From Ilumatobacter fluminis (GTDB lineage: Bacteria > Actinomycetota > Acidimicrobiia > Acidimicrobiales > Ilumatobacteraceae), in the NCBI RefSeq assembly GCF_004364865.1, contig NZ_SOAU01000001.1:3194001-3258000 (forward strand): a stretch of 64,000 bases of DNA. Direction: 5' to 3'. Shown here one piece after another: positions 34,443 to 63,972 of this stretch (position 1 is its first letter; each line of letters opens with the position of its first letter). The translations under genes and the position numbers were made by a program. The notes beneath the pieces are model-generated. The model worked only from the letters and a program-made list of their open reading frames with translations. It made no database searches and was not told where the DNA came from.

Positions 34443-34802
34443 TCAGGAGCCGCGGCGACGGAAGAAGCGCTTCAGTCCCTTGCGCTTCTTGGACGCCGCT
34501 TCGCGCTCGGCGTCGACCTCGGCCTTGATGCGGTCGCCGGCCTGGTTGAGGATGTCCTCCGCCTCGTCGAGCAAGGCGGCGGCGGTGCCGTCGTCGAGGC
34601 TGCTCGGCTCGGGCGGGGTCGGCGGCACGACGAGCGATCCGTGGGTCCAGGCGACGTCGGCGAGACGCCGTTCGTACTTGGGACAGTTCTCGGGGCACCG
34701 CCACGGCGCGTCGGGCGCCAGGTCGAGGTTGCACTTCCGGACCGTGTCGCCGTTGGGGTACGTCCGTGATTCGAAGTTCTTGCACTCCGTCCGCATCGGC
34801 AT
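34443..34802 (-). CDS. Four-cysteine protein inside the suf operon
   Basis: 119 residues. Cysteines at 7, 24, 36 and 40 (CKNFESR, VRKCNLD, WRCPENCPKYE) give a C-x16-C-x11-C-x3-C arrangement in the first 40 residues. The rest is a Pro-rich linker, an acidic helix (DGTAAALLDEAEDILNQAGD) and a basic end KKRKGLKRFFRRRGS. I do not recognise the family. The Cys set could bind a zinc ion or an Fe-S cluster, and its place between sufB and sufD suggests a part in cluster assembly or sensing. Confidence 0.75.
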   Translation of the reverse strand: MPMRTECKNFESRTYPNGDTVRKCNLDLAPDAPWRCPENCPKYERRLADVAWTHGSLVVPPTPPEPSSLDDGTAAALLDEAEDILNQAGDRIKAEVDAEREAASKKRKGLKRFFRRRGS

Positions 34803-34912
34803 GCGGGTCAGGCTAGCGACGCGTGAGGCGACGCGGTGAGCACCGCATCCGGGGTCGGAAGATCTCCCTGAACGTCGACTCCGTCGCCGTCCGCTACGAC
34901 ACCCGACCCGAT

Positions 34913-36313
<1,401 letters not shown>

Positions 36314-42913: not shown

Positions 42914-42928
42914 GATCACCTCGATCAC

Positions 42929-42945
42929 GTCGCGCCCGGCGCGAC
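42929..42945 (+). terminator. Terminator candidate after gntR
   Basis: GTCGCGCC and GGCGCGAC arms separated by a single C, 15 bp past the gntR stop. Compact GC-rich hairpin. Confidence 0.5.
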
Positions 42946-43003
42946 ACCATCCGGTAACCCGGGATTCACAACTTCGACTGGCGCGGTTCGACGCCCTGCG
43001 TTA

Positions 43004-43021
43004 TGGTCTGACCATCAGACC
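43004..43021. promoter_or_regulatory. GntR operator candidate, site 4
   Basis: TGGTCTGACCATCAGACC, 37 bp before the VOC-cupin gene. It overlaps a TATGGT (-10-like) sequence, so bound regulator would block the promoter. Identical to site 5. Confidence 0.8.
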
Positions 43022-43058
43022 GAGCGCCCAAGGTGGCGCCGACCCCTCGAAGGAACCG

Positions 43059-44000
43059 ATGATCACCGGAATGAACCACGCCGTGCTCTATGTGCGAGAC
43101 GCACGGCGCCACCAGAAGTTCTACGAAGACGTGCTCGGCTTCTCGACCGTCATCGACCACCCGGAAGGCGCCTTCGTCTTCCTGCGTGCCCCGGCGTCGA
43201 CGAACCATCACGATCTCGCCTGCTTCACGATCGGCGAAGGCGCCCAGCCCTCCACGGCGGGCCGCCAACAGGTCGGGCTCTACCACGTGGCGTGGGAAGT
43301 ACCGACGCTCGCCGACCTCGAGGCGTACCGTCAGAAGCTGAGCGAGGCGGGCTCGCTCATCGGCGCCTCCGACCACGGCGCCAACAAGAGCCTGTACGCA
43401 AAGGACCCCGACGGCATCGAGTTCGAGGTCATGTGGCTCGTCCCGGCCGACGAGTGGGGCGACGAGCAGCACGAAGCGATCGTGCGCCCGCTCGACATCG
43501 GCGCCGAGGTCGCACGCTTCGGATCCCATCTCGCATCGACCTCGCACAAGGTCGCGCCGACAGCGGGAGCGATGCGTGAGATCGCCGACAACCAGTACTG
43601 CCACTTCTTCGAGGACGACGAGTTCGTCGAGACGAGCCGACCCGGCTTCCGTCACCGCATCATCACCGGCGAGCAGCTCCAGCTGTGCTTCTGGCGCATC
43701 AAGGGCGGAGCCGAGGGATCGTTCCTCCACCGCCACGACGAACACGAACAGCTCGGCATCATCATGCGCGGGGCGCTCGACTTCCGCATCGGTGACCCCG
43801 ACGACCCGACCCGCACGGTGCTCGGCGCCGGCGACGTCTACCTGGCGCCCAAGACCGTCGACCACGGCGACTCCGTCTTCATCGGCGACGACGAATACGA
43901 CGAGTGCTGGATCCTCGACGTCTTCGCTCCCCCGCGCGCCGATCTGCAGGCCACGAACTCGTACAACCAGTCCTCGAACAACAAGGAGGTGACGGCATGA
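43059..44000 (+). CDS. VOC dioxygenase-type domain fused to a cupin domain
   Basis: 313 residues. Residues 1-130 are a VOC domain with the His7 (MNHAVLYV), His76 (YHVAWEV), Glu121 (GIEFEV) triad of extradiol enzymes. Residues about 190-290 are a cupin with His224, His226 and Glu230 (LHRHDEHEQLG) and His269 (KTVDHGDS). Both metal sites are intact, so it may be a bifunctional iron enzyme. It is the first gene after a GntR operator and overlaps hyuA by 4 bp. Confidence 0.88.
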   Translation: MITGMNHAVLYVRDARRHQKFYEDVLGFSTVIDHPEGAFVFLRAPASTNHHDLACFTIGEGAQPSTAGRQQVGLYHVAWEVPTLADLEAYRQKLSEAGSLIGASDHGANKSLYAKDPDGIEFEVMWLVPADEWGDEQHEAIVRPLDIGAEVARFGSHLASTSHKVAPTAGAMREIADNQYCHFFEDDEFVETSRPGFRHRIITGEQLQLCFWRIKGGAEGSFLHRHDEHEQLGIIMRGALDFRIGDPDDPTRTVLGAGDVYLAPKTVDHGDSVFIGDDEYDECWILDVFAPPRADLQATNSYNQSSNNKEVTA

Positions 44001-46102: not shown

Positions 46103-47682
46103 CCCGCACGTTCGACCCGATCGAACTGGAGATCTGCTGGCAGAGCCTGATCGCCACCGTCAACGAGCAGGCTCGCGCCCTCCAGCGTTCGGCGTTCAGC
46201 CCGATCGTTCGCGAGGCGGGCGACCTCGCGAACGCCGTGTTCGACCGTCGCGGCCGCATGGTCGCCCAGGCCGTCACCGGTACGCCCGGTCACATCAACA
46301 GCTTGGCGATGGCCGTCTCCAACATCTTGGAGGAGTACCCGATCGACAGCCTCGAGCCGGGCGACGTGCTCATCACGAACGACCCGTACAAGACCGCGGG
46401 CCAGCTGCTCGACGTCACCGTGCTGGTGCCGGCGTGGCGCAACGGTGAGCTGATCGCCCTGTTCGGCTCGACCATCCACCACACCGACGTCGGCGGCTAC
46501 GGCATCGGTGCCGGCGGCCGCGACGTGTTCGAAGAGGGTCTCTGGATCCCGATCGTCAAGCTCATGAAGAACGGCGAGCGCAACGAGGACGTCTGGAAGT
46601 TCATCCTCTCGAACGTGCGCCAGCCCGATCACATGGCCGGCGACCTGCACGCCCAGATCGCCTCCGGCGAAGTGGGCGCCCAGCGCCTGTCGACCCTGTG
46701 CGACCGTCACGACCTCGACGACATCGAGGATCTGTCCGACGAGATCGTCACTCGCTCCGAAGCGGCGACCCGAGCCGGCATCAAGGAACTGACGAGCGGC
46801 CGCTACGAGGCATCGGCCCTGCTCGACCTCGCCGACGGCAGCGAGATCACGATCCAGTGCGCGCTGATCGTCGACGCCGACACCGGCACGATCACCGTCG
46901 ACTACACCGGCACCTCCCCGGCCAGCCGGTGGGGCATCAACGTGGTGAAGAACTACACCCACGCCTACACGACGTTCGCGATCCGTTCGGTGCTCAGCCC
47001 CGACATCCCGAACAACTACGGCAGCCTCGCCCCGATCGAGCTGATCGCTCCCGAGGGCTCGATCGTCAACGCTCAGCCCCCGCAGCCGGGTACGGCCCGC
47101 CACGTGGTCGGCATGTTCCTGCCGAACGCGCTGCTGAAGGCGCTCGCCCAGGTCCGTCCCGACGGCGCCATGGCCGAAGGCTCGGGCGCCGTGTGGACGA
47201 TGCAGGTCAGTGGCAACCACGACGACGGCAGCCCGTTCATCACCGCGATGTTCACCTATGCCGGCGGCGTCGGCGCCCGTGCGACCAAGCCCGGCCTGAA
47301 CGCCTGCTCGTACCCGACCGGCGTCGCCGCCGTGCCGATCGAGGTGGTCGAGGCATCGGCCCCGATCCGCTTCTCCACCAAGGCGCTGCGCGAGGGCTCC
47401 GGCGGAGCGGGCGCCCAGACGGGCGGCCTCGGCCAGACGATCGAGTTCTCGGTCGACACGACGCGCGAGTGGGAACTCAACGCGGTCACCAGCCGCCTCG
47501 CACACGCACCCAAGGGCATCTTCGGTGGTGAGGCGGGCGAGACCGGTTCGTTCCTCGTGAACGGCGAACCGGTCCGCACCCAGGCCCGCATCACCCTGCA
47601 ACCCGACGACGTCGTCACCTTGCGCCTCCCCGGCGGCGGCGGCTACGGCGAGCCCGTCGCTGCCGGCGGAGCGAACGGCTGA
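46099..47682 (+). CDS. hyuB: Hydantoinase/oxoprolinase subunit B
   Basis: 527 residues. EICWQSLIATVNEQARALQRSAFSPIVRE, GDVLITNDPYKTAGQLLDVTV and the TIHHTDVGGYGIGAGGRDVFEEGL region are standard HyuB landmarks; the end LRLPGGGGYGEP is the conserved closing motif. It forms the catalytic partner of HyuA. No third acetone-carboxylase-type gamma subunit is present, which favours a hydantoinase-like role. Confidence 0.93.
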   Translation: MTRTFDPIELEICWQSLIATVNEQARALQRSAFSPIVREAGDLANAVFDRRGRMVAQAVTGTPGHINSLAMAVSNILEEYPIDSLEPGDVLITNDPYKTAGQLLDVTVLVPAWRNGELIALFGSTIHHTDVGGYGIGAGGRDVFEEGLWIPIVKLMKNGERNEDVWKFILSNVRQPDHMAGDLHAQIASGEVGAQRLSTLCDRHDLDDIEDLSDEIVTRSEAATRAGIKELTSGRYEASALLDLADGSEITIQCALIVDADTGTITVDYTGTSPASRWGINVVKNYTHAYTTFAIRSVLSPDIPNNYGSLAPIELIAPEGSIVNAQPPQPGTARHVVGMFLPNALLKALAQVRPDGAMAEGSGAVWTMQVSGNHDDGSPFITAMFTYAGGVGARATKPGLNACSYPTGVAAVPIEVVEASAPIRFSTKALREGSGGAGAQTGGLGQTIEFSVDTTREWELNAVTSRLAHAPKGIFGGEAGETGSFLVNGEPVRTQARITLQPDDVVTLRLPGGGGYGEPVAAGGANG

Positions 47683-47684
47683 TC

Positions 47685-49268
47685 ATGACCGCGACGACCA
47701 CCCACACGTTCGTGGACCTGTGGTCGTCCGCGGTCGCGCACCGTGGCGGCGCCCCGTTCCTCACGTTCGAGGGGCCGTCCGGCGACGTGACCGACTGGAC
47801 GTACGACGAGTTCGACCAGGTCGTGGCGCGCACCGCTGCGGCCCTGGCCGAACGCGGCGTCGAGTCCGGCTCGTCGGTCCATCTCGCGCTCACCAACTCC
47901 CCCACGTTCATCGCGGTCTGGGTCGCGACCCTCCGCCTCGGCGGCTGGATCGTCCCGTCCGACCCGATGGGCCGGACGCCCGAGTTCGCCGAACACATCG
48001 ACCGCACCTCCCCCGCGGTCGGTGTGTGCGCGGCGAGTCGGGCCGACACCTATCTCCCCGCGGCCGGTGGCCGCCCCGTGATCCAGATCGACGAGGCCGA
48101 CGCCTCGTTCGAGTGGCTGCCGGCCGACGGTGTCGGCGAATGGCCCGACGTGCAGGCGACCGATCGTGCGGCGGTGATGTTCACCAGCGGCACGACCGGT
48201 CGACCGAAGGGCGTCGAGATCACTCAGGCGAATTACGCCTTCGCCGGCACGACGATGGCATCGGCTGCCGACCTCGGCGCCGACGACCGCCAGATCGTCG
48301 TGCTCCCCCTGTTCCACGCGAACGCCCAGTACTACTCGTTCGCCAGTGCGATCGCGGTCGGCGCCTCGGTGGCGTTGATGCACACGTTCTCGGCGAGCGG
48401 CTTCATCCCGCAGGCGGCGCGCCACCGAGCGACCCACGCCAGCCTGTTCGCCGGCCCGATCCGGATGATCCTGGCCCGCGGCGGCCCGCTCGACCCGTCC
48501 GACGGCGAGTTGCAGCTGCGTCACTGCTGGTTCGCCCAGAACCTCGGCGACGACCAGTTCGAGACGTTCGGCGAGTGGATCGGTTGTCGCCCCCGCCAGC
48601 TCTACGGCATGACCGAGACGATTCCGGCGGTCCTCACCGACACGACCGACGACCCGAGGCCCGACTCGATGGGCACCGTCACCGACGGCTGCATCCTCGA
48701 GATCCACGACGAGCACGGCAACCGGTGCCCGGTCGACACGGTGGGTGAGATCGTCGTCGGCGGTCGGCCCGGCCACGAGCTGTTCGCGGGCTACCTCGAC
48801 GACCCGGCGACGACCGAGGCGTCGTTCCGTGGTGCCTGGTTCCGCACCGGCGACCGGGCGTCGTTCGATGCCGAGGGGCGCCACCACTTCGACGGCCGAC
48901 GCGCCGACGTCCTGAAGGTCTCGGGCGAGAATGTGTCCGTGGTCGAGGTCGAAGCGGTCGTCGGCAGCCACGCCGAAGTTCACGAGGTCGTGGTCGTCGG
49001 CGCACCCGACCCGATCCGCGACGAGGTGCCCGTGGCGTTCGTCGTCCCGACCGAGTCGGCCGACCGCAACGGTCTCGAGTCGCGACTCGACGCCTGGGCC
49101 GCCGAACGGCTCGGCAAGGCCAAACAGCCACGCCACTACGAGATCGTCGACGACCTGCCCCGCACCAGCGTCGGCAAGATCCGAAAATTCCTCCTCGCCG
49201 ACGCCGCGGCAACGGTCGCCGCGTCGACGTCCCCGACCCCCAACCAGAACCCGGAGCAGAAGTCATGA
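47685..49268 (+). CDS. AMP-dependent acyl-CoA synthetase (ligase)
   Basis: 527 residues. P-loop FTSGTTGRPKGVE, adenylate motif LYGMTET, hinge FRTGDRASFDAEGRHHFDGR and C-terminal Lys in TSVGKIRKF are complete. The pattern is closest to CaiC-type crotonobetaine/carnitine-CoA ligases. It would activate a carboxylic acid made by the upstream enzymes. Starts 2 bp after hyuB; the stop overlaps the Rieske oxygenase start. Confidence 0.9.
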   Translation: MTATTTHTFVDLWSSAVAHRGGAPFLTFEGPSGDVTDWTYDEFDQVVARTAAALAERGVESGSSVHLALTNSPTFIAVWVATLRLGGWIVPSDPMGRTPEFAEHIDRTSPAVGVCAASRADTYLPAAGGRPVIQIDEADASFEWLPADGVGEWPDVQATDRAAVMFTSGTTGRPKGVEITQANYAFAGTTMASAADLGADDRQIVVLPLFHANAQYYSFASAIAVGASVALMHTFSASGFIPQAARHRATHASLFAGPIRMILARGGPLDPSDGELQLRHCWFAQNLGDDQFETFGEWIGCRPRQLYGMTETIPAVLTDTTDDPRPDSMGTVTDGCILEIHDEHGNRCPVDTVGEIVVGGRPGHELFAGYLDDPATTEASFRGAWFRTGDRASFDAEGRHHFDGRRADVLKVSGENVSVVEVEAVVGSHAEVHEVVVVGAPDPIRDEVPVAFVVPTESADRNGLESRLDAWAAERLGKAKQPRHYEIVDDLPRTSVGKIRKFLLADAAATVAASTSPTPNQNPEQKS

Positions 49269-50461
49269 CGATCGAACACACCACCGCCCCGGCACTGCCC
49301 GAGGGCATCGACGCTGCGTTCCTCGACGAGATGCAGCGCTCGACCACCGACGTGGCGACGGCGATCACGTTGCCGCCCCAGCTCTACACCTCCGCCGAGG
49401 CGCTCGCGTTCGAGCGCGAGGCGATCTACGCCAAGGAATGGCTGTGCGTCGGTCGCGTCGAGCGGATCCCGAACCCGGGCGACTGGTTCACCGTCACCAT
49501 CTGTGACGAGCCGATCATCGTCGCCCGCGACAAGCAGGGCGAGATCAACGCCATGTCGGCCGTGTGCCAGCACCGTGCGATGCAGGTGTGCGACGGCGAG
49601 GGGAACGGCACGACCTTCAAGTGCCCCTACCACCACTGGAACTACGCCCTCGACGGCCGTCTGCTGGGTGCGCCGGCGATGGAGCGGACCGAGGGTTTCG
49701 ACAAGTCGGAGTGGGGACTCCCCCGCCTGGCCGTCGAGCTCTGGCAGGGCTTCGTGTTCGTCAACATGGACGTCGACGCCGCCCCGCTCGCCCCGACCCT
49801 CACCTCGTACACCCCGTACCTCGACAACTATCACCTCGAGGACGCCGTGTGCCCCGGCACCTTCACGCTCGAGGACATGCCGTGGAACTGGAAGGTGATG
49901 TTCGAGAACTTCAACGACGGCTACCACGCCAACCGTCTCCACCAGTACGTCCAGGACTTCTGCCCGAGCAACATGAGCGAGTTCCCCGTGGAGTGGAGTG
50001 ACGACAACAACGTCATCTTCCGCGAGGGTGGGTACACCCACATGGACGGCGGTTTCAACGCCACCCACCACTCGATCATGCCGGTCTTCCCCGACCTGAC
50101 CGAGGAGGAGCGCACCCGCTCCACGTTCGCCCTGGTGCCGCCGACGCTGTGCCTCGGCACGGCTCCCGATCAGGCGTTCTTCTTCCTCGTGCGGCCGAAG
50201 GGGCCCGAGACGATCGACGTCGAGATCGGCTACATCTTCCATCCGTCGGCACTCGACGATCCGCTGTTCGAGCACAAACTCAAGCTCGCCGACGTGGGTG
50301 TGCAGGTGTTCGTCGAACAGGACCAGGACGCCACCACCAAGGTGCAGCGTGGGCTTCGCTCCCGCTTCGCCCCGCGTGGCCGCTACTCGTGGCAGGAAGA
50401 GAGCCACGTCAACTTCAACCGCTGGCTGGTCAAGCGCTACCGCGAACAGATCAACGGCTGA
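49265..50461 (+). CDS. Rieske non-heme iron oxygenase, alpha subunit
   Basis: 398 residues. Rieske ligands Cys101, His103, Cys120, His123; mononuclear iron site His221 and His226 in ENFNDGYHANRLH with Asp218 as the inter-subunit bridge. It belongs to the aromatic-ring-hydroxylating or N-/O-demethylating class. The reductase is not adjacent; the ferredoxin at 36446 is a possible donor. Last gene of the operon starting at 43059. Confidence 0.92.
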   Translation: MTIEHTTAPALPEGIDAAFLDEMQRSTTDVATAITLPPQLYTSAEALAFEREAIYAKEWLCVGRVERIPNPGDWFTVTICDEPIIVARDKQGEINAMSAVCQHRAMQVCDGEGNGTTFKCPYHHWNYALDGRLLGAPAMERTEGFDKSEWGLPRLAVELWQGFVFVNMDVDAAPLAPTLTSYTPYLDNYHLEDAVCPGTFTLEDMPWNWKVMFENFNDGYHANRLHQYVQDFCPSNMSEFPVEWSDDNNVIFREGGYTHMDGGFNATHHSIMPVFPDLTEEERTRSTFALVPPTLCLGTAPDQAFFFLVRPKGPETIDVEIGYIFHPSALDDPLFEHKLKLADVGVQVFVEQDQDATTKVQRGLRSRFAPRGRYSWQEESHVNFNRWLVKRYREQING

Positions 50462-50599: not shown

Positions 50600-51827
50600 A
50601 TGACCATCACCAACCCACCCACCAGCCGTTCCCGCTGGCGACGAGCCGCACTCTCCGTGGTGGCCCTGTCGTTGGTGGCCGCGGCATGCGGTGGCGACGA
50701 CGACGATTCGTCGGACGACACCGAGGCCGCCGAGACCACGGATGCGCCCGACGACACCGAGACGACCGACGCACCGGACGACACCGAGACCACGGATGCG
50801 CCCGACGACACGGAAACGACCGACGCACCCGAGGCCACCGACGCACCGTCGGGCGAGACGACCGACCTCGACGCCAACGGCGACGGTGAGGTGCGCATCG
50901 GTATCGCCGCTGCGGGCCCCCGTGACGACGGCGCCTACTACCAGGCCGTCGTCGACGCCGCCGAGACCTTCTCCGCCGAGAACGGCTGGGGCGAGGTCAT
51001 CGTCGTCGACAACATCCAGGCGGCCGACGCGGCCACCGAGCTCGCCAACCTCGCCCAGCAGCCGATCGACATCATGATCGTCGGCGCCAGCGAGATCGCC
51101 GAGCCGATGCCCGACCTGGCCGAGGAGTACAGCGACATCTTCTGGTACTGCAACTGCGGCGCCGGCTTCCCCGAGAGCGAGTTCTACTTGCAGAGCCAGG
51201 ACAACGGTGCGGGCATCGCCTACACGGCCGGCGTCGCGACGGGCATCGCCCTGCGTGACAGCGGCGGCGATTCGGTCGCATTCCTGGGCTGCTGCGATCT
51301 CGGCTTCGAGATCCAGCACTACCTGGCGTATCAGCTCGGCCTCGAGTCCGTCGACGAGTCGCTCACCTTCACCTACGTGCCGACCGGTGACTTCCCGTTC
51401 GACTTCGACAACATCCAGAACGCGTCGGCTGCCTACGAGAACGCCGTCGCCGAGGGTGCCGATGCCATCTACCCGTACCTCGGTGGCGCCCACGAGCCCA
51501 TCGTGCAGCTCGCCAACGAGGGCGGCCAGATCGTGCTGAGCGCCGGTGCCTCCGACGTCTGCACCCGTGAGGGCGACCTCTCGTGGGACATCGCGGTCCG
51601 CTTCGACGGTGGCGACTACGTGCGTGAGATCTTCCCGCAGATCCTCGACGGCAGCGCCCAGGAAGGCGACATCATCGTCTACTCGCCGGGCGAGGAGCCC
51701 GACGTGGCCGGCGCCGTCATCTGCGACGCCACCCCCGAGCAGCAGGCCGAGATGGACGAGGCCTACGCCCTCGTCGCCAGTGGCGACCTCGACGCCAACT
51801 TCGGCGAGATCGCCGCTGAGGCGTTCG

Positions 51828-51835
<8 letters not shown>
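50600..51835 (+). CDS. BMP-family (nucleoside-type) ABC substrate-binding lipoprotein
   Basis: 411 residues. Signal segment ending in lipobox VAAAC, a Thr/Asp/Glu linker of about 60 residues with tandem DAPDDTETT units, then a periplasmic-type binding domain (EVRIGIAAAGPRDDGAYYQAVVDAAE). The downstream ATPase and permeases are of the BmpA/NupABC/RnsBACD purine-nucleoside class. An AGGAGGAGG ribosome site precedes the ATG. First gene of the long operon. Confidence 0.88.
50741..50821 (+). repeat. 27-bp tandem repeat in the lipoprotein linker
   Basis: Three full units, each coding DAPDDTETT, at 50741, 50768 and 50795, followed by a diverged fourth. The third-position changes show the units are under coding constraint. 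Confidence 0.85.
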
Positions 51836-53428
<1,593 letters not shown>

Positions 53429-53432
<4 letters not shown>

Positions 53433-54679
53433 CGGTCGAACCAGGCAACATGACCGCTCAGCAGGTCGCCGGCGGCGAGTCGCACCCGACCGAACACCAC
53501 CACGGTGTCGGCTCCGACGACTTCAAGCCCGAGATGGGCACCGACGGCACCCTCACCGAGGAGCCGCATCACCCCAACCCGGCGACACCGACGGCCGACC
53601 GCTTCAAGGCGATCGGCGAGGTCGTCTTCCTCTATGCCATCTGCATCGCTGCTGCGCTCGGCCTCTCGGCACTGCTCGTCGAGGTCACCGGCGGCTCGTC
53701 GTCGGAGGTGTTCAACGCGCTGCTCGACGGCAGCATCCGCGGGCCGGGCCGCATCGGTGCCACCATCGGCGTGGCGGTGCCGTTGCTGCTCGTCGCGATC
53801 GGCACGATCGTCTCGAACCGGGCCGGCCTGGTGAACATCGGCCAGGAGGGTCAGCTGTACATCGGCGCAGCGTTCGGCGCCTACTTCGGCACCAAGCTCG
53901 GTTTTTCCGGACCGTGGGTGATCGTGCTGCTGCTGGCCGCCAGCGTGGTGGGCGGCGCTCTCTGGGCCGGCATCGCCGGCGTGTTGCGGTACACCCGCAA
54001 CGTCCCCGAAGTGCTCACCACCCTGCTGCTGGTCACGATCGCCGCACAGCTGGTCGGATACGGCCTCAAGAACCAGTGGCTGTTGCTCGCTCCGGCCGAG
54101 GGCCGAGCGAATCGACAGCAGATCAGCCAGCAGCTCCCCGACAACACCCGCATCCCACGCATCGAGTTGTTCGGCAACGAGTTCCCGATCTCGGCATTCA
54201 TCGCGATCGCGCTCGCGTTCCTGATCGCCGCCGCCATGGCCCGCACGGTGTGGGGTCTCCGGCTCCGGATGCTCGGTCACAACCCCCGCACCGCGCAACG
54301 GGCCGGTGTCGCCGCATCCCGGTACGGCGGCGGCGCCCTGCTCGTCTCCGGTGCGTTCGCCGGCCTGGCCGGCGGCATGATGCTCGCAGGCGGCGACTTC
54401 GGCAACTACACCCTCGTGCCCGGCTTTCCCGCCAACATCGGCTGGACCGGACTCCTCGTCGCACTGGTGTCGCGTCAGCGCGCATCGGTCGCGATCGTCA
54501 TCGCCTTCGTCTTCGCCTGCCTGCGCACCGGATCGGGCTTCCTTGCTGCAACCGGCGTCGAGCGACGCATCACCGACGTGGTGCAGGGCCTGCTCGTCCT
54601 GGCCCTCCTCATCCCCCCGGCGCTGTTGTTCTTGCGACAACGACGACGCCAGATGAACAGCGGAGGTGACCGGACGTGA
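53429..54679 (+). CDS. ABC transporter permease, nucleoside-importer type (1)
   Basis: 416 residues. An extended hydrophilic N-terminus of about 60 residues, including TEHHHGVGSDD, precedes about eight to ten membrane segments (BPD_transp_2 type). RAGLVNIGQEGQLYIGAAFGAY is the family signature. It overlaps the ATPase by 4 bp. The long N-terminal extension is unusual for this family. Confidence 0.88.
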
Positions 54680-55611
54680 TCGACTTCCTCAGCGCCATCG
54701 GCGACGTCCTGACGTCGGAGGCGGCCTACATCAACGCCCTCACGTTCGCGGTCTTCCTCGCCTTCGGTGCCACCGGTGAATGGGTGGCCGAACGGTCGGG
54801 CACCCTCAACATCTCGCTCGAGGGCATGTTCCTCGCCGGCGCCTTCTCGGCCGCCATGGGCATGCACCAGACGGGCAACGAGGTGGTCGCCGTGTTGTCC
54901 GGCATCGTCGGCGGCGTGGCCGTCGCCGCCGTACAGGCGAACATGAGCCACCGGCTCGTCGCCAACCAGTTCGTGGTCGGCCTGACCCTCAACATCCTCG
55001 TGCTCGGACTCACCAGCTTCCTGGCGTCCGAACTCGACCCCGTGACGAGCCAGGCCGATTCGCAGCGCATCCCGCTCCTGGCGGACATCCCGCTCGTCGG
55101 CGCCGCGCTGTTCGACCGAACGTGGATCTTCTACCTGATCTACGCCGTCGTCCCGATCTGCTGGTGGATCGTCTTCCGGACCCGTTGGGGGCTCGAACTG
55201 CGAGCCACCGGCGAGAACCCTCAGTCGGCCGACGTGAGCGGCATCGACGTCAACAAGCGACGTCGGGAGAGCATCTACGTCACGGGCGTCACCGCCGGCA
55301 TCGGCGGTGCGTACCTCGTACTCGGCGCGGTCGGCCAGTTCGAGGACTCGATCGTCGGCGGACGTGGCTTCATCGCCCTGATCGCAGTCATCTTCGGTGG
55401 GTGGACGCTGCGCGGCACGATCGCCGGCTGTCTGCTGTTCGGTGCCGTGCTGTCGTTCCGCTTGTCGCTCCCGGCACTCGGCTACGAGCTCAACGGTGAC
55501 CTGCTGACCTCGTTGCCGTTCGTGGTGACGATCGTCGCCATGTCGATCTTCGCCAGCCGGGTCCGCCCGCCGGCGTCGCTCGCCCAACCATTCATCCGCG
55601 GTCTCAAGTAG
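54676..55611 (+). CDS. ABC transporter permease, nucleoside-importer type (2)
   Basis: 311 residues, BPD_transp_2 type. GEWVAERSGTLNISLEGMFLAGAF and LRATGENPQSADVSGIDV are landmarks. It pairs with the preceding permease as in RnsC/RnsD or NupP/NupQ systems. 4-bp overlap with the previous gene. Confidence 0.9.
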   Translation: MIDFLSAIGDVLTSEAAYINALTFAVFLAFGATGEWVAERSGTLNISLEGMFLAGAFSAAMGMHQTGNEVVAVLSGIVGGVAVAAVQANMSHRLVANQFVVGLTLNILVLGLTSFLASELDPVTSQADSQRIPLLADIPLVGAALFDRTWIFYLIYAVVPICWWIVFRTRWGLELRATGENPQSADVSGIDVNKRRRESIYVTGVTAGIGGAYLVLGAVGQFEDSIVGGRGFIALIAVIFGGWTLRGTIAGCLLFGAVLSFRLSLPALGYELNGDLLTSLPFVVTIVAMSIFASRVRPPASLAQPFIRGLK

Positions 55612-55626: not shown

Positions 55627-56115
55627 ATGACCGAAACCCAGACCGGCACCGCCGCCGAACAGACGTCGAAGATCCCGACGCTGCTCACCCACATCGCACT
55701 GCCGGTGCGAGACCTCGGCGCCACGCTGGCGTTCTACGAGCGGTACACGAACCTGGCCGTCATCCACGAGCGTCACGACCCGGAGACCGACCTGCGCACT
55801 GCGTGGCTCGCCAACGAGCGTGACCGCACGACCGACGGAGCGGCCCGCTTCGTGATCGTGCTGATCGAGGGCAAGCTCCCGACCAAGATCACCGGCGACA
55901 TCCAGGAGCAGTACGGCTTCCTCACCTCGATCAGCCACCTCGGACTGTCGCTCGACAGCCGCGAGGAGGTCGATCGGATCGCCGAGATGGCGAAGGAAGA
56001 GGGCTGTCTCCTGCTCGGCCCGATGTACCGCAACGAGGTCGTCGGCTACATCTGCATCGTCACCGACCCCGACGGCAACAACCTCGAGTTCTCCGTCGAG
56101 CAGGTGCTCGGGTGA
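55627..56115 (+). CDS. VOC-family metalloenzyme
   Basis: 162 residues. The triad His in LTHIALPVRD, His in ISHLGLSLD and Glu in GNNLEFSVE is complete. It is similar to the protein at 36853, also under a GntR operator, so the two may act on related intermediates. It lies 15 bp after the permease gene. Confidence 0.87.
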   Translation: MTETQTGTAAEQTSKIPTLLTHIALPVRDLGATLAFYERYTNLAVIHERHDPETDLRTAWLANERDRTTDGAARFVIVLIEGKLPTKITGDIQEQYGFLTSISHLGLSLDSREEVDRIAEMAKEEGCLLLGPMYRNEVVGYICIVTDPDGNNLEFSVEQVLG

Positions 56116-56122: not shown

Positions 56123-57301
56123 GTGAAGACCGCACCGTCGATCGCTCGGATCGACACGTTCCCGTGCACGTACGGCACCGACCGTGAGCGCATGTCGTTC
56201 CTCTACGTGCGCGTCACCGCCGACGACGGCAGCGTCGGGTGGGGCGAGGTGTGCGACAGCTACGGCTGCTCCTACGCCGGCGTCCTCGCCCACCTGATCG
56301 ACGAGGTCTTCGCCCCGCTGATCGTCGGCCAACCGCTCGTGTCGGTCGACCTGCTCGCGGACCGCATGCGCCTGTTCACCCGACGGCGACTCGGCGACGC
56401 CTGGATCGCACCCCAAGCCCGTTCCGGCATCGAGATCGCACTGTGGGACCTCGCCGGCCAGGCCGCCGGACGATCGATCTCCGAACTGCTCGGCCGCACC
56501 GCCGACCACGTCGAGGTGTACGGATCGTGTGGCTTCCTCGAGGAAGGCCCGGCCGAACACCACTACGAGGTGATCCGCCCCCTGCTCGATCGCGGCGTGC
56601 GCAAGATCAAGGTCCGCACCGGCCCCGAATGGCACTCCGACCTCGACACCCTGCGCAAACTCCGTCCGATGCTGGGCGCCGACGTCGAGTTGATGGTCGA
56701 CGCCAGCGAGACGTACACGCTGCCGACCGCTCGCGCCCTCGCCGAAGCGCTCACCGAGTTCGACGTGCGATGGATCGAGGAGCCGCTGCCGCAGTCGGAA
56801 CGGGCGGGCATCGAAGCACTCGTCGCCCACTCCCCCGTTCCCGTCGCCTACGGGGAGCACATGTTCGGCCTCGACGACGCACTCGACGCGCTTCGCCGAC
56901 GCCAACTCGACGTGCTCCAGCCCGACGCCGCCACCGCCGGCGGCATCAGCGAGGCTCGCAAGATGGCGACGGCTGCGCCGGCCTACGGCGTGCGGGTCGT
57001 CCCCCACGTCTGTTCCGGTCCGGCGGCGCTCGCCGCCAACCTGCATCTCGCTGCCAGCGTCCCGGCGATCCGACTCGTCGAGTACCCGCCGACGCTGCTG
57101 CCCGTGTGGGAGACGTTCGGCGACGGAGCCCCGCTCGGTCTCGACTCGATCGTCGACGGCACGCTCCCCGTCCCGACCGCCCCCGGCCTCGGCGTCTCCA
57201 TCAGCGAGACCGCCTGCGCTGACCATCCGTACGAAGCACCCGGCGCCCGCGTCGCCGGCACCACGACCGGCCTGCCCGACCGATTCGTCGGCGACCGCTG
57301 A
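56123..57301 (+). CDS. Enolase-superfamily enzyme (mandelate racemase subgroup)
   Basis: 392 residues. The catalytic set of the mandelate racemase subgroup is present: Lys161-x-Lys163 (KIKVRTG), metal ligands Asp193, Glu219 and Glu245, and the His295/Asp268 dyad. It would abstract a proton alpha to a carboxylate for racemisation, dehydration or cycloisomerisation. GTG start, 7 bp after the VOC gene. Substrate unknown; sugar-acid dehydration or lactone formation are options. Confidence 0.9.
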   Translation: MKTAPSIARIDTFPCTYGTDRERMSFLYVRVTADDGSVGWGEVCDSYGCSYAGVLAHLIDEVFAPLIVGQPLVSVDLLADRMRLFTRRRLGDAWIAPQARSGIEIALWDLAGQAAGRSISELLGRTADHVEVYGSCGFLEEGPAEHHYEVIRPLLDRGVRKIKVRTGPEWHSDLDTLRKLRPMLGADVELMVDASETYTLPTARALAEALTEFDVRWIEEPLPQSERAGIEALVAHSPVPVAYGEHMFGLDDALDALRRRQLDVLQPDAATAGGISEARKMATAAPAYGVRVVPHVCSGPAALAANLHLAASVPAIRLVEYPPTLLPVWETFGDGAPLGLDSIVDGTLPVPTAPGLGVSISETACADHPYEAPGARVAGTTTGLPDRFVGDR

Positions 57302-57320: not shown

Positions 57321-57953
57321 ATGACCGACGACACCATCGTGTCAACCGACGAGATCGCTGCGGCGCGCGAGCGCGTGTCCGTGCCCGGCTCCCCCGGCTT
57401 CGAGGGCGAGATCGGCGGCAGCATGGCGGAGTTCTCCGCCGAGTACATGACCTACATCGAGGACTATCTCGACGACGACCTCAAGGTCGTCGGCGACCGC
57501 ATGATGGCCATGCTCCGGTCGATGGACCAGCTCCACCAGGGGTTCGCCGTGAGCCAGCTCGACCACGCGCTCCAGACCGCCACCCGCGCCGAGCGCGACG
57601 GCGCCAGCGACGACATGATCGTCGCGTCGCTGTGCCACGACGTCGGCAAGACCTTCTCGAACATGAACCACCCGGCGATCGCAGCGGAGATGTTGCGCCC
57701 GTGGGTGAGCGACGAGGCGTACTGGGTCGTGAAGTACCACCAGGACTTCCAGGGCCGCCACTACTACGGCCGGATCGGCATGGACCCCGAGATGCGCCGC
57801 AAGCATCTCGGTCACGAGCACTACGCGATGGCAGAGCGGTTCGCCGACGACTGGGACCAGACCGCCTTCGACCCCGACTACGAAGCCGAGACGCTCGACC
57901 ACTTCGAACCGCTCGTGCGCAAGGTGTTCTCGCGCACGCCCCGTCGCGGCTGA
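57321..57953 (+). CDS. HD-domain protein with PhnZ/MIOX-like diiron ligand pattern
   Basis: 210 residues. The ordered ligands His82 (LDHALQTATRA), His106-Asp107 (LCHDVGK), His117 (MNHPAIAAEML), His140 (VKYHQDF) and Asp179 (DDWDQTAF) match the pattern of HD-type mixed-valent diiron oxygenases such as PhnZ, TmpB and myo-inositol oxygenase rather than nucleotide phosphohydrolases. It may cleave a C-C or C-heteroatom bond. No phosphonate gene is nearby. AGGAGG ribosome site. Confidence 0.8.
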   Translation: MTDDTIVSTDEIAAARERVSVPGSPGFEGEIGGSMAEFSAEYMTYIEDYLDDDLKVVGDRMMAMLRSMDQLHQGFAVSQLDHALQTATRAERDGASDDMIVASLCHDVGKTFSNMNHPAIAAEMLRPWVSDEAYWVVKYHQDFQGRHYYGRIGMDPEMRRKHLGHEHYAMAERFADDWDQTAFDPDYEAETLDHFEPLVRKVFSRTPRRG

Positions 57954-57955: not shown

Positions 57956-59371
57956 GTGTCACCGGCAACCACGGCGCCCGGCGCCGCACCGAGCGCCGAC
58001 GTCACGTTGCTCGTCAACGGTGACGTCGTCACGATGAACCCCAACCGCGACGTGCTCGTCGGCGGTGCGATCGCGATCGCCGACGACCGCATCGTCGCCG
58101 TCGGCCCGACGTCGGAGTTGCGCGCCGCTCACCCCGGCGCCACCGAGGTCGACCTGTCGTCGTGCGTCGTCACGCCTGGCATGATCGACGCCCACCAGCA
58201 CCTGACCGGCGATCCGCTGATCCGGAGCTGCATCCCCGACCTCCTGCCGCCCGGCGCATCGATCTTCGAGTGGTCGGTGCCCGTCCACGCCGCCCACGAG
58301 CCCGACGACGACGAGGCGTCGGCGATCTTGTCGGCGGTCGAGGCCCTCACCGCCGGCGTCACCACGGTCGTCGAGGCCGGCACCGTCGCCCACGCCGATC
58401 GCGTGGCAGCAGGTCTCCAGCGCCTCGGTCAGCGCGCCACGCTCGGCGTGTGGGGTTGGGACATCGAAGAGGGCCCGTTCACCGCCCCGGCCGACGAGGT
58501 CCTCGATCGGCAGGCCGCGGTGATCGACTCGTTCCCGGCCGGCGGGCTCGTCGAGGGCTGGGTCACCCTCGTCGGCCACGACCTGGCGTCGGACGCACTC
58601 CTGGCCGGCGGCGCCGACCTCGCACGTGCCAAGTCGACCAACATGACGATGCACCTCTCGCCCACGTCGTCCGATCCGGAGCGCTATCTCGAGAAGACGG
58701 GCAAGCGCCCGGCCGTCCACCTGAACGACCTCGGTGTGCTCGGCGAACACCTGCTGCTCGGCCACGGCGTGTGGCTCGACGACGCCGAGGTCGAACTCGT
58801 CATCGACACCGAAACCGCCATCGCCTATTGCCCGTGGGCGTACCTGCGGCTCGGCCAGGGCGTCTGTGCCCACGGGCGCCACGCCGAGATCGTCGAACGC
58901 GGCGGCCGGGTGGCGTTCGGCTGCGATGCGACCAACGCCGGCGACTCGATCGACATCCTGCGCACCGCTGCGGTCGCCGCCGGCATCGCCCGCGACGCGG
59001 CCGTCGATCCGACCCGATTCGGGGCGCACCAGGCGTTCGAGCTCGCGACCATCGCCGGCGCCGAGGCGATCGGCATGGCCGACCGGATCGGATCGATCGA
59101 GGTCGGCAAGCAGGCCGACATCGTCGTCCACCGCACCGACACCCCCGGCTGGACGCCGCGCGGCGACGTCGGCCTGCAGCTCGTGTGGGGTACCGATGGT
59201 CGCAGCGTCCGCGACGTCTGGGTCGCCGGCCGCCAGGTCGTGTCCGACGGCCGCCCGACGGCGATCACCCAGGACGAACTGGCCGAGATGGCGACCCACC
59301 GCCAGACGAAGCTGCTCGAGCGTGCCGGCATCGAGGTGCCGCACCTCTGGCCGCATCACGACGCACGCTGA
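57956..59371 (+). CDS. TRZ/ATZ-type amidohydrolase (1)
   Basis: 471 residues from GTG 57956. Metal ligands: His80-x-His82 (IDAHQHLTG), His in NMTMHLSPTS, His in LLGHGVW, Asp in FGCDATNAGD. This is the family of guanine deaminase, SAH/MTA deaminase and atrazine chlorohydrolase, which remove an amino or other leaving group from a nitrogen heterocycle. A paralogue is at 62557. Starts 2 bp after the HD gene. Confidence 0.88.
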   Translation: MSPATTAPGAAPSADVTLLVNGDVVTMNPNRDVLVGGAIAIADDRIVAVGPTSELRAAHPGATEVDLSSCVVTPGMIDAHQHLTGDPLIRSCIPDLLPPGASIFEWSVPVHAAHEPDDDEASAILSAVEALTAGVTTVVEAGTVAHADRVAAGLQRLGQRATLGVWGWDIEEGPFTAPADEVLDRQAAVIDSFPAGGLVEGWVTLVGHDLASDALLAGGADLARAKSTNMTMHLSPTSSDPERYLEKTGKRPAVHLNDLGVLGEHLLLGHGVWLDDAEVELVIDTETAIAYCPWAYLRLGQGVCAHGRHAEIVERGGRVAFGCDATNAGDSIDILRTAAVAAGIARDAAVDPTRFGAHQAFELATIAGAEAIGMADRIGSIEVGKQADIVVHRTDTPGWTPRGDVGLQLVWGTDGRSVRDVWVAGRQVVSDGRPTAITQDELAEMATHRQTKLLERAGIEVPHLWPHHDAR

Positions 59372-59394: not shown

Positions 59395-60432
59395 ATGGAA
59401 CTGCGCGTCTTGGGACGAACCGGCATCCAGGTGGCCCCACTCGGTTTGGGCACGATGGTGCTCGGCGCATGGGGCAACACCGATCACGACGAGTGCTCAC
59501 GCATCGTCAACCGAGCGCTCGACGCGGGTCTGAACTTCGTCGACACCGCGGACGTCTACGCGTTCGGTGAGAGCGAGGAGATCGTCGGCAAGGCGATCGC
59601 CGGACGACGAGACGAGGTCGTACTCGCCACCAAGTTCCACAACGGCATGCCTGGCCCCGACGGCGAGTTCGACCCAAATCGGCGCGGCAACTCACGACGC
59701 TGGATCCGGCGCGCGGTCGAGGACAGCCTGCGACGCCTCGACACCGATCACATCGACCTGTACCAGGTCCATCGTCCCGACCCGATGACCGACGTCAGCG
59801 AGACGATCGACGCGCTCACCGATCTGGTGCGCGAGGGCAAGCTCCTCGCGTGGGGCACCTCGACCTTCCCGGCCGAGGAGTTGGTGGAGACCTGCTGGGC
59901 AGCCGACCGGCGAGGCGTCGCCGCACCGCACACCGAGCAGCCGCCGTACTCGATCTTCTGTCGGGCGATCGAACGCGACGTGCTGCCGACGTGCCGTCGC
60001 CACGGCATCGGCGTCATCGTGTGGAGCCCGCTCTCGGGTGGGTGGTTGACCGGCAAGTACTCACGCACCACTCCCCCGCCCAGCGACTCGCGAGCGGCCA
60101 CCAACCCCGACCACTTCGACGGTGACAACGACGACAAGTTCGACGCCGTCGAGCGACTCGGGGTGATCGCCGACGATGCCGGCCTCACGCTCACCCAGCT
60201 CGCACTCGGCTTCACGCTCGCCCATCCCGATGTCGACGTCGCCCTGATCGGGCCACGCACCGAGGCGCAGCTCGACGACCTGCTGACCGCGCGCGACGTC
60301 GTGCTGTCCGACGACGTGCTCGACGCGATCGACGAGGTCGTGGCCCCGGGTACCGATCTGAACCCTGCCGACCGTGGGTGGACCCCGCCGTCGCTCGACC
60401 GAACGTTCCGCCGCCGAGGAGGTGCCCGATGA
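59395..60432 (+). CDS. Aldo/keto reductase
   Basis: 345 residues. (beta/alpha)8 NADPH-dependent family; the catalytic tetrad is visible as Asp and Tyr in FVDTADVYAFGES, Lys in VLATKFHNG and His in LYQVHRPDP. AAGGAGAG ribosome site before ATG 59395. It overlaps the MDR gene by 4 bp. It likely reduces or oxidises an aldehyde/ketone intermediate. Confidence 0.9.
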   Translation: MELRVLGRTGIQVAPLGLGTMVLGAWGNTDHDECSRIVNRALDAGLNFVDTADVYAFGESEEIVGKAIAGRRDEVVLATKFHNGMPGPDGEFDPNRRGNSRRWIRRAVEDSLRRLDTDHIDLYQVHRPDPMTDVSETIDALTDLVREGKLLAWGTSTFPAEELVETCWAADRRGVAAPHTEQPPYSIFCRAIERDVLPTCRRHGIGVIVWSPLSGGWLTGKYSRTTPPPSDSRAATNPDHFDGDNDDKFDAVERLGVIADDAGLTLTQLALGFTLAHPDVDVALIGPRTEAQLDDLLTARDVVLSDDVLDAIDEVVAPGTDLNPADRGWTPPSLDRTFRRRGGAR

Positions 60433-61469
60433 AAGCCATGCAGTACGACCATCACGGCACCAGCGAGGTGCTGCAGTACACCGACGTCGCCGACCCCGAA
60501 CCGGGGCCCGCCGACGTCGTCGTCGACGTCGCTGCGTGCGCACTCAACCGACTCGACCTCGTCCAGCGCAACGGCTGGTACACGCTGCCCGGCTACACGC
60601 TCCCCCACATCGCCGGCATGGACGTCGCCGGTGTCGTGTCGGCTGTCGGCGACGAGGCCGCCGCGGCGGGCTGGTCGGAAGGTGACCGAGTCGTCGTCGA
60701 CCCGTCGCTGGCGGGCGTCACCGACTCGTCGAAGCTGGCCGGCATGGGCGACCTGTACGGCGATCTCGGCGTGATCGGTGGCACGGTCGCCGGCGGCTAC
60801 GCCGAGCGGTGCCTCGCACCGGCGTCCCACCTCTACCGGGTGCCCGACGACATGGAACTCGCACACGCGGCAACGTTCCCGACGACCTTCCTCACCGCCG
60901 GCCACGCCCTCTTCGCGGTCGCCGATCTCCAGCCAGGCGAGACCGTGATGATCCATGCAGCGGGCAGCGGCGTGTCGGTTGCTGCGATCCAGATGGCGGT
61001 CGACCGCGGGTGCACCGTACTCGCGACCGCGGGCAGCGAGTCCAAGCTCGAACGTGCCCGCGACCTCGGCGCAGCGCACGTCTGCTACAACCGCACCGGC
61101 GACGTCGCCACGTGGGCTCGCGAGGTCACCGACGGCCGCGGCGTCGACGTCGTGTTCGACCACGTCGGCACGGCCCTGTTCCCGCCGTCGATCTTCTCGC
61201 TGGCGATCGGCGGCCGCCTTGTGTGCTGCGGCAACACCTCGGGCGACGAGGCCGTCATCCCGAGCCTCGGTTTCCTGTTCCACTCCGGGATCAAGATCAT
61301 GGGGTCCGATCCCTATGCCCCCGAGGAGTTCGGGCCGCTCTGGGAGCAGTTCTGCGACCGGCGCTACCCGCAGGTCATCGACGCCCAGTTCGCCCTCGCG
61401 GATGCGGCTGAAGCCCAGGACCGCCTCGAGAACAACGACGTGTTCGGCAAGGTCGTGCTCCGGCCGTGA
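60429..61469 (+). CDS. MDR-family oxidoreductase (quinone reductase-like)
   Basis: 346 residues. Catalytic-domain CALNRLDLVQRNGWY and PHIAGMDVAGVV resemble the MDR protein at 37838, but the structural zinc Cys loop is missing. NAD(P) binding by GETVMIHAAGSGVSVAAIQMA. Enoyl or quinone reduction is likely. Overlaps both neighbours by 4 bp. Confidence 0.88.
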   Translation: MKAMQYDHHGTSEVLQYTDVADPEPGPADVVVDVAACALNRLDLVQRNGWYTLPGYTLPHIAGMDVAGVVSAVGDEAAAAGWSEGDRVVVDPSLAGVTDSSKLAGMGDLYGDLGVIGGTVAGGYAERCLAPASHLYRVPDDMELAHAATFPTTFLTAGHALFAVADLQPGETVMIHAAGSGVSVAAIQMAVDRGCTVLATAGSESKLERARDLGAAHVCYNRTGDVATWAREVTDGRGVDVVFDHVGTALFPPSIFSLAIGGRLVCCGNTSGDEAVIPSLGFLFHSGIKIMGSDPYAPEEFGPLWEQFCDRRYPQVIDAQFALADAAEAQDRLENNDVFGKVVLRP

Positions 61470-62560
61470 CCGCATCGGGTGACTCCCCCTTCCCCGAACT
61501 GAAGAAGACCCACACGATGGCCCGCACGGGCCGTCCGTACACCGACTACAAGCCACCCGCCGCAGCCCCGGTCTGGGCGGCGATCGAGGGGTACGGGCGC
61601 TTCCACGTGCTCGTCGCCGCGCTCGAGCTCGGCGCGTTCGAGGCGCTCGCCCGGGCCGACCGTCGAACCGGCGAGGAACTCGCGAGCGAACTCGACGTGT
61701 CGGCCCCGCACCTCACGACACTGCTGGAAGGCGTGGTCGCGCTCGGCTTCCTCGAGCACCATCACGGGCACTTCTCGCTCAACGACACCGCCAAGCGGTA
61801 CCTCCTCGTCGACGGCCCGGCTTCGATGGTCGATCTGGTCCCCGTTTCACCGGGCCCGCTCGCGAACTGGAGCGACCTCACCGAAACGGTGCGCACCGGC
61901 GCGCCGCCGTCACCGATCGACGACGACCCGGCCGCGTTCTACCGACCGCTCGTGGCCGGCACGTTCACGACCATCTTCCGCTGCGCGAGCCGAGCCGACC
62001 TCAAGTTGCGCTACTCGGCGCTCCCTGCACCTTTGGTGCTCGACCTCGGCGCCGGCGCGGCGCCGTGGTCGTGCGCGATCCTCGGCGCCAACCCGGGCGC
62101 CACGGCGGTCGTGAACGACCTCGATGGGGTCGTCGACCTCGCCGAGGCCAAGCTGACCGAGCACGGGCTGACCGATCGCTGCGAGATCCGAGCGGGCGAC
62201 TACCTCGAGATCGACGTCGAGGACGACTCGTACGACCTCGTCGTGCTCGGCCACATCCTGCGCGCCGAGAGCGGCGACCGTGCCCGCGCCTTGATCGATC
62301 GCGCCGCACGCGCGTTGAAGCCCGGTGGACGCGTGCTGATCGGCGACTACTTCGCCGACCGCCAGCGCGCGCTCGAACCACACGCCCTGATGATGGGCGT
62401 CACGATGATGGCCAGCACTCGCCACGGCCGCGTGTTCCGATACGCCGACCTCGCCACCGAGTTGCGCGACGCCGGCTTCGAGGCACTCCGCCTCATCGAG
62501 CCGATCGGTTTCCAGATGGTCGCCGTCGGCACGCTCGCACCTGGAGGTACGACACCATGA
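61466..62560 (+). CDS. O-methyltransferase-type SAM-dependent enzyme
   Basis: 364 residues from GTG 61466 (ATG 61517 is also possible). A winged-helix dimerisation region (residues about 35-100, LELGAFEALARADRRTGEELASELDVS split only by its loop) is followed by SAM motif I VLDLGAGAAPW and VLGHILRAESGDRARALIDRAARALKPGG. The design is that of plant/actinobacterial small-molecule O-methyltransferases. In a catabolic context it might act in reverse order or modify an intermediate. Confidence 0.85.
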   Translation: MTASGDSPFPELKKTHTMARTGRPYTDYKPPAAAPVWAAIEGYGRFHVLVAALELGAFEALARADRRTGEELASELDVSAPHLTTLLEGVVALGFLEHHHGHFSLNDTAKRYLLVDGPASMVDLVPVSPGPLANWSDLTETVRTGAPPSPIDDDPAAFYRPLVAGTFTTIFRCASRADLKLRYSALPAPLVLDLGAGAAPWSCAILGANPGATAVVNDLDGVVDLAEAKLTEHGLTDRCEIRAGDYLEIDVEDDSYDLVVLGHILRAESGDRARALIDRAARALKPGGRVLIGDYFADRQRALEPHALMMGVTMMASTRHGRVFRYADLATELRDAGFEALRLIEPIGFQMVAVGTLAPGGTTP

Positions 62561-63972
62561 CCGACTCGAACGCGCACCCCGACGCTCCCCAGCCGATCGA
62601 CACCCTCGTCGACGCCTGGTACGTCGTGACCATGAACGAGACCCGCGACATCATCCATCGCGGCTCGATCGCCATCCACGACGGAGTGATCGTCGAGGTC
62701 GGCAAGACGGCCGACCTCGAGCGGCGCTACGCCCCGGCCCAGCGCCTCGGCGGCGACCGATTCGTCGCCGCGCCGGGCATGGTCAACACCCACATCCACA
62801 TCACCGGCGAACCGTTGACCCGTGGCTACGTGCCCGACGACACCCCGTTCGAGGAGAACGTGTTCGTGTGGCTCACCAACCTGTACGCCGCCTACGCCGA
62901 GGGTGACGAGCGGTGCTCCGCCCAGTTGGCAGCCACCGAGATGCTGCGGTCGGGAACCACCACCTTCCTCGAAGCCGGCACCGTCCGCCTCCTCGACGAG
63001 GTGTTCGACGGTCTCGCCGAGACGGGCATCCGGGGACGCCTCGGCGCCTGGGTGTGGGATCTTCCCCCTGAACCCGACGTGTACCGGCAAACGACAGACG
63101 AGGCGATCGCCCGGCTCGACGACCAGCTGACCCGCTACCGCTCGTTCGCCGAGGGTCGGTTGGGTGCCTGGTCGACGGTGGTCGGCCACACCACCTGCTC
63201 CGACCCACTCTGGAAGGCGGCGCGCGAGCTCGCCGACACCCACGACGTCGGACTCAGCTTCCACATGTCGCCCGCCAAGTCCGACCCCGACGGCTTCATC
63301 GCGGAGTTCGGGCAGCGCCCGTTCGAGCACCTCGACGAGATCGGCGTGCTCGGTGACGACGCCTGTGCGACGCACTGCGTCCACGTGGACGATCGCGAGA
63401 TCGACACGATGGCTCGCACCGGCACCAGTGTCGCCCACTGCCCGACCACCGCGCTCAAGGTCAGCTACGGCGTGACCCAGATCGGCAAGATGCCCGAGAT
63501 GGTGCAGCGAGGCGTGAACGTCTCGATCGGCACCGACGGCAACAACGCCTCGAACTACTCCGACCTCATGCGGGCCACCTACCTCGTCGCCGGGCTCTTC
63601 AAGGACGGCCGGATCGACCCCCAGATGTTCCCAGCCGAGAAGGCGCTCGAGATGGCGACCCTCGGTGGCGCTCGCTCGATGACGATGGACGACCAGATCG
63701 GCTCGCTCGAAGTCGGCAAGCGTGCCGACGTGGTGCTGCACGACACCGACCGGCCCGAGTGGCGACCGTTGTTCAACGTCGTCAACCAGCTGGTCTGGTC
63801 GGCCGACGGTCGTGGTGTCCACACCGTCTTGGTCGACGGCCGCGTCGTCGTGGAGGATGGCCACATGACGACGATCGACGAAGCGGCGCTGTGGGCCGAG
63901 GCCCAGCAGCGCGGCGGAGACATCGTCGCCCGTTCCGGACTGCCCGACCGGGCGAAGTTCCCCGTTCTGTGA
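62557..63972 (+). CDS. TRZ/ATZ-type amidohydrolase (2)
   Basis: 471 residues. Metal ligands His79-x-His81 (VNTHIHITGE), His in GLSFHMSPAKSD, His in ATHCVHVDD and Asp in IGTDGNNASN. Same family as the gene at 57956, with which it shares the MSP-x3-SDP-x11-HL block; the two may hydrolyse successive or related ring intermediates. 4-bp overlap with the methyltransferase gene. Confidence 0.9.
   Translation: MTDSNAHPDAPQPIDTLVDAWYVVTMNETRDIIHRGSIAIHDGVIVEVGKTADLERRYAPAQRLGGDRFVAAPGMVNTHIHITGEPLTRGYVPDDTPFEENVFVWLTNLYAAYAEGDERCSAQLAATEMLRSGTTTFLEAGTVRLLDEVFDGLAETGIRGRLGAWVWDLPPEPDVYRQTTDEAIARLDDQLTRYRSFAEGRLGAWSTVVGHTTCSDPLWKAARELADTHDVGLSFHMSPAKSDPDGFIAEFGQRPFEHLDEIGVLGDDACATHCVHVDDREIDTMARTGTSVAHCPTTALKVSYGVTQIGKMPEMVQRGVNVSIGTDGNNASNYSDLMRATYLVAGLFKDGRIDPQMFPAEKALEMATLGGARSMTMDDQIGSLEVGKRADVVLHDTDRPEWRPLFNVVNQLVWSADGRGVHTVLVDGRVVVEDGHMTTIDEAALWAEAQQRGGDIVARSGLPDRAKFPVL

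Follow-up and report, generated by a model that had tools for sequence, protein, structure and literature searches.

The HD-domain protein encoded at 57321..57953 (+ strand) of the window, as we call the whole 64,000-nucleotide stretch of Ilumatobacter fluminis DNA analysed here, is probably a mixed-valent, non-haem diiron oxygenase with an HD fold, a reading to which sequence comparison and structure modelling together lend a probability of roughly two in three. Its nearest solved proteins are the 2-amino-1-hydroxyethylphosphonate oxygenase PhnZ and the 1-hydroxy-2-trimethylaminoethylphosphonate oxygenase TmpB, its gene belongs to a conserved operon, and its substrate is probably neither a phosphonate nor inositol.

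The reading frame extends from an ATG at 57321 to a TGA at 57953 (210 codons), with AGGAGG directly 5′ of the start; the preceding enolase-superfamily (MR_MLE) gene stops 19 bases upstream, and the gene of the amidohydrolase AH1 starts 2 bases past the HD stop codon. GC content by codon position is 0.65/0.41/0.95, and a simple count puts dN/dS at ~0.07, 0.10, 0.15 and 0.23 in comparisons with four near relatives and at 0.46 with a fifth relative that is more distant. An earlier, sequence-only reading had named this frame and six residues characteristic of metal sites, His82, His106, Asp107, His117, His140 and Asp179, and all were found where it placed them. Each of the six is invariant in 40/40 rows of a family alignment (38 distinct rows, with two duplicates, the query among them), and again in 46/46 rows of a second set overlapping the first. 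Further positions invariant across the 40 rows include Q85, N116, F143, Q144, G145, R159, Q180, F183, D184 and P185. Given the ligand conservation, the codon-position GC and the low dN/dS, the gene is a real coding sequence under purifying selection; a chance motif is ruled out by the 40/40 conservation and that selection.

Searched by sequence against solved structures, the protein matched PhnZ (1.8e-6) and TmpB (3.3e-4), with the next match at E = 1. A profile of 21 family sequences gave 1.5e-11 and 4.9e-9 for the same two proteins and 0.4 for the next match, with unrelated or hydrolase chains at 0.4–1.1 and the myo-inositol oxygenase MIOX at 0.85 and 1.2. NCBIfam models for PhnZ, TmpB and hydroxymethylphosphonate dioxygenase matched all 21 of these family members (E ≤ 0.01), and the MIOX Pfam model matched 16. 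Measured against curated equivalog cut-offs, the protein scores far lower (TIGR03276, 45.9 of 214.6 bits; NF052439, 33.2 of 300; NF049941, 31.2 of 300), and weak matches to TIGR03276, the PhnZ model, are not specific, since three of the 14 control genomes (Synechococcus, Thermotoga and Methanocaldococcus) gave matches below cut-off as well. An AlphaFold model (10 sequences; mean pLDDT 76.6, pTM 0.75; sole stretch below 50, residues 1–33) yielded ten Foldseek matches at E ≤ 0.001, seven of them PhnZ and three TmpB chains. PhnZ also headed the VIA-align ranking (Z = 17.7 over 155 residues), followed by TmpB (16.8), MIOX (11.8) and then matches at or below 8.6. Z values under about 13 can reflect merely a common helical arrangement, so that the MIOX fold match counts for little by itself.

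At the level of residues, the sequence alignment with PhnZ lies mainly within residues 64–112 and pairs H82, H106, D107, K110 and D179 with PhnZ positions 34, 58, 59, 62 and 161; in the second half D179 alone is paired, in a sub-threshold segment. At 20–23% identity, PhnZ has in common with this protein the six ligands and a QxxHxxQ pattern around the first His (Q79 and Q85 here), while TmpB (~20–22%) shares the six ligands and HxxQ. The Gln three residues after the first His is present in PhnZ, TmpB and 46/46 family rows, and among the 11 HD-domain proteins of the organism's own genome it is confined to the two that belong to this family, 10 of the 11 being readable at that position (L082 is not). 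Two features set the protein apart. The YxxE substrate/gating loop, which precedes the first His (Y24xxE27 in PhnZ), is H72xxF75 here and absent from 46/46 family rows, and H62 of PhnZ is replaced by K110, giving HDxGK instead of the HDxGH of PhnZ and TmpB. A PhnZ or TmpB orthologue was rejected on the equivalog scores and the absent YxxE.

Most known members of the HD group are phosphate-cutting enzymes, and the general HD domain is the only Pfam model that the protein matches above cut-off. The strongest alternative, although an unlikely one, is a dinuclear, YqeK-like HD phosphohydrolase acting on a phosphate ester or nucleotide, with a role in salvage or detoxification; the importer and the deaminase-type enzymes encoded nearby would suit purine-like compounds. 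According to the review PMC8177086, the dinuclear phosphatase YqeK also has two extra histidines, HD hydrolases with iron cofactors are known, and the nuclearity, metal and substrate of HD proteins are not to be inferred from sequence alone. Since YqeK shares the extra histidines, the earlier claim that the six-ligand set defines the PhnZ/TmpB/MIOX oxygenases was overstated; the set is necessary, not sufficient, for the oxygenase class. The same review gives as hallmarks an Arg three residues before the first His for HD phosphatases, His-His at the last His position for HD phosphodiesterases, with a GYP triad in HD-GYP proteins, and Thr in place of the last Asp for the HD hydratase Ddi2. In the present protein these positions read Q79, Y139-H140-Q141, with no GYP in the sequence, and D179, the last conserved in 46/46 rows; an HD phosphodiesterase or HD-GYP protein was rejected on the missing His-His and GYP. 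YqeK-type diphosphatases, for all their common HD fold, differ in their conserved Arg and give a much weaker fold match (YqeK 8wmy, Z = 6.3), and HD hydrolases as a group come far behind PhnZ, TmpB and MIOX in the fold ranking and also trail PhnZ and TmpB in the profile search. Better evidence for an oxygenase than the ligands is thus the lack of the phosphatase Arg and of His-His and GYP, the HxxQ common to PhnZ and TmpB, and the fold ranking. The proposal of a diiron oxygenase in the sequence-only reading holds insofar as sequence, profile and fold all place PhnZ and TmpB nearest and the fold ranking puts MIOX third; it does not hold by virtue of the six ligands as a definition. Because the ligands are indecisive and the second half of the protein aligns weakly to PhnZ, we set the oxygenase reading no higher than the odds given at the outset.

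The Arg of HD phosphatases does occur in some members of the family. A tree of the 46 rows resolves into two subfamilies, one of 38 rows that holds the query and is characterized by Q three residues before the first His and HDxGK, and a separate one of 8 rows with R at that position and HDxGD. The smaller subfamily consists of the paralogue in the organism's own genome, five plasmid copies, L012 and the HD protein of L088. The paralogue (G000:C1:3662702-3663157; L002, L061) has the Arg and HDxGD rather than HDxGK, and the neighbours scanned around it are unrelated to the window operon. Taking both subfamilies, a search of 296 genomes from this class (own genome counted) matched relatives in 115 of them at E ≤ 1e-15; nine loci with relatives lie on named contigs, Ilumatobacter MAGs (79 and 95% identity) included. 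Six plasmid copies are variously annotated as HD domain protein (three), phosphohydrolase, hypothetical protein and inositol oxygenase family protein. On plasmid pF045_1 (L063 8037-8633), an HDxGD-type gene lies directly 3′ of a TauD/TfdA dioxygenase gene and is followed by choline binding-protein, choline dehydrogenase and aldehyde dehydrogenase genes, a layout that resembles TmpA-TmpB; on a small mobilizable Sphingobium plasmid (L066 5882-6481), a relative is located between class II aldolase and alpha/beta hydrolase genes. Relatives of 50–60% identity at four loci (L009 10046-10612, L050, L051 and L058) are close to ispH (LytB) and have der, aroA, cytidylate kinase or prephenate dehydrogenase genes in the vicinity, which makes for a housekeeping-like setting. 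In rough gene calls, the flanks of five such relatives (these four and L011) showed shared housekeeping neighbours and no pathway.

In the window, the HD gene is part of a cluster of genes on the + strand. An upstream part (42188..47682) encodes a GntR/FCD regulator, a VOC-cupin protein and hydantoinase A and B, and is followed by genes for an acyl-CoA ligase (AMP-binding; 47685..49268), a carnitine/glycine-betaine monooxygenase-like Rieske oxygenase large subunit (49265..50461), a BMP/PnrA-type ABC importer comprising a binding protein (50600-51835), an ATPase and two permeases (50600..55611 in all), a VOC (glyoxalase/dioxygenase fold) protein (55627..56115) and the MR_MLE enzyme, which is sugar-acid dehydratase/cycloisomerase-like (56123..57301). 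Beyond the HD gene lie AH1, a TRZ/ATZ-type, deaminase-like amidohydrolase (57956..59371), an aldo/keto reductase (59395..60432), a zinc-type quinone oxidoreductase/alcohol dehydrogenase (60378..61469), an O-methyltransferase-like SAM methyltransferase (61466..62560) and AH2, a second TRZ/ATZ-type amidohydrolase (62557..63972). Both amidohydrolases match structures of 5-methylthioadenosine/SAH deaminase, atrazine chlorohydrolase and 8-oxoguanine deaminase, and the structure matches of the enolase-superfamily protein are mandelate-racemase and sugar-acid type enzymes; the BMP-type binding protein had no match among solved structures at E ≤ 0.001. About 4 kb past the window end is a formamidase/acetamidase-type gene (L093 5301-6341; G000 3262300-3263340), which fits nitrogen-compound catabolism, and upstream of the catabolic cluster, on the opposite strand, are SUF iron–sulphur assembly genes for two SufBD-type proteins and an ABC ATPase (32140-36313, −).

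The operon is kept wholly or partly at six other loci. Two of these contain it entire, within the ends of the locus (L005 and L042), and two short contigs (L004 and L006) cover the stretch between permease or ATPase at one end and reductase or AH1 at the other. At L043 extra sequence separates the two reductases, and the VOC gene is inverted there and in L006. The sixth, L044, retains AH2, the methyltransferase, AH1, HD, the enolase-superfamily gene and a binding protein; the alcohol dehydrogenase and permeases are not there, and its homologues of the Rieske, ligase and hydantoinase genes are set apart by some 10 kb or more (L095, L097). The hydantoinase A/B, acyl-CoA ligase and GntR genes occupy the far side of the cluster in the window and in two relatives, and homologues of the upstream part also adjoin the cluster in L094 from one genome and in L095 with L097 from another. 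At the regulator end of the cluster, two relatives carry a vanillate-demethylase-type Rieske gene (L094 7330-8337 and L044 1729-2751), for which the window genes scanned gave no match. Matches to the enolase-superfamily gene at E ≤ 1e-100 were confined to 4 of the 296 genomes (own included), and these are exactly the four that carry an HD protein at least 67% identical.

In the 296 genomes, the own genome included, AH1 has homologues (E ≤ 1e-100) at 23 places, spread over 18 genomes. Comparing these places by eye with the HD matches from the 296-genome search, an HD gene lies within 2 kb at 6 of the 23, where random placement would give 0.05, and within 20 kb at 9, where it would give 0.43. 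Four of the six close pairs represent one orthologous cluster, and the remaining pairs (L086 with L096, and L087) represent a second, related cluster with a 49% identical HD protein, two Rieske genes and a VOC gene, to which L087 adds DUF1989. With L088 there are at most three such arrangements; here an HDxGD-type HD gene is ~12 kb from AH1, and between them are a Rieske gene, a BMP-type importer, an aldo/keto reductase and formamidase-type and isochorismatase-type hydrolases. Rieske genes thus also occur in the more distant clusters. Two observations argue against a fixed pathway: at 14 of the 23 AH1 places there is no HD gene within 20 kb, and the majority of the HD genes from the 296-genome search lack a nearby AH1 homologue. 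The partner genes that keep recurring suggest that a nitrogenous compound is broken down through Rieske hydroxylation, deamination and cleavage by the HD enzyme, possibly in that order.

Two further alternatives concern the substrate. A myo-inositol-type oxygenase, cleaving an inositol or cyclitol ring and feeding the sugar-acid-dehydratase-like neighbour, is quite improbable. Such an enzyme would be in keeping with the HDxGK motif, since MIOX presumably also has Lys after HDxG, with the sugar-acid type of the enolase-superfamily enzyme and with the MIOX matches of 16 of the 21 family members; the protein's own match to the MIOX model (PF05153, residues 69–113) reaches 21.5 bits, below the gathering score of 25. 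The lack of YxxE is likewise a feature of MIOX, as stated in PMC8177086. However, MIOX ranks third in fold and is longer (241–258 residues in the chains compared), and the presence of two deaminase-type amidohydrolases together with hydantoinase genes speaks for a nitrogenous compound.

As to phosphonates, the genome gave no match to PhnJ (an E. coli control was positive), and the window contains no TauD/PhnY-type gene, and with it no adjacent 2-oxoglutarate hydroxylase of the PhnY/TmpA kind; four TauD-type genes lie elsewhere in the genome. PhnA gave no match and PhnX matches only below cut-off, absences that weigh less because no control genome passed the cut-off for either. These searches support the absence of phosphonate genes noted by the sequence-only reading, more firmly for PhnJ and the hydroxylase than for PhnA and PhnX, and its step from there to a new substrate for the family is a reasonable supposition to which the lack of YxxE adds weight. 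Although the searches cover only some of the possible phosphonate pathways, their outcome together with the missing YxxE makes a phosphonate substrate unlikely. An oxygenase of the PhnZ or TmpB kind that cleaves a 1-hydroxyphosphonate, for which the nearest solved proteins and the distant TauD-type genes would speak, is very improbable in view of HxxF and HDxGK, the equivalog scores and these searches.

For a diiron oxygenase outside both families, a mechanism can be outlined by analogy with PhnZ, in which we take H82, H106, D107 and D179 to bind one iron, H117 and H140 to bind the second, and D107 to bridge the two. In the Fe(II)/Fe(III) pair, one iron would coordinate a hydroxylated intermediate through its hydroxyl and the other would bind O2; the enzyme would then abstract the hydrogen adjacent to that hydroxyl and break the neighbouring C–C (or C–N) bond to form a carboxylate, with no need for an external reductant. 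The enzyme would serve a catabolic operon whose BMP-type ABC transporter would bring in a nitrogen-containing compound. In place of the 2-oxoglutarate hydroxylase that serves PhnZ and TmpB, the carnitine/betaine-type Rieske oxygenase probably supplies the hydroxyl, and the amidohydrolases and the enolase-superfamily enzyme may act before and after the HD step. We tentatively propose, as one possibility that we rate well short of even, a new branch of HD diiron oxygenases in which the Rieske enzyme hydroxylates an imported nitrogenous compound, the HD enzyme cleaves the adjacent C–C or C–N bond and the two amidohydrolases attack the ring; the substrate could be, for example, the side chain of a pterin, a modified nucleoside or another N-heterocycle.

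The protein would then be PhnZ- and MIOX-like in mechanism while lying outside PhnZ/TmpB and MIOX proper. A search of open-access PMC literature returned no title or abstract start naming this HD subfamily, and the literature found reports only phosphonates and inositol as substrates of HD-domain oxygenases. If the proposal is true, the substrate of this HD oxygenase would be neither of these; the enzyme class is already known, and the substrate and the pairing with a Rieske oxygenase would be new. A marker set of absent YxxE, HDxGK and HQDFQG could help to set these proteins apart, and, if the relatives are oxygenases too, they would constitute a common group of iron enzymes that are now misnamed or unnamed.
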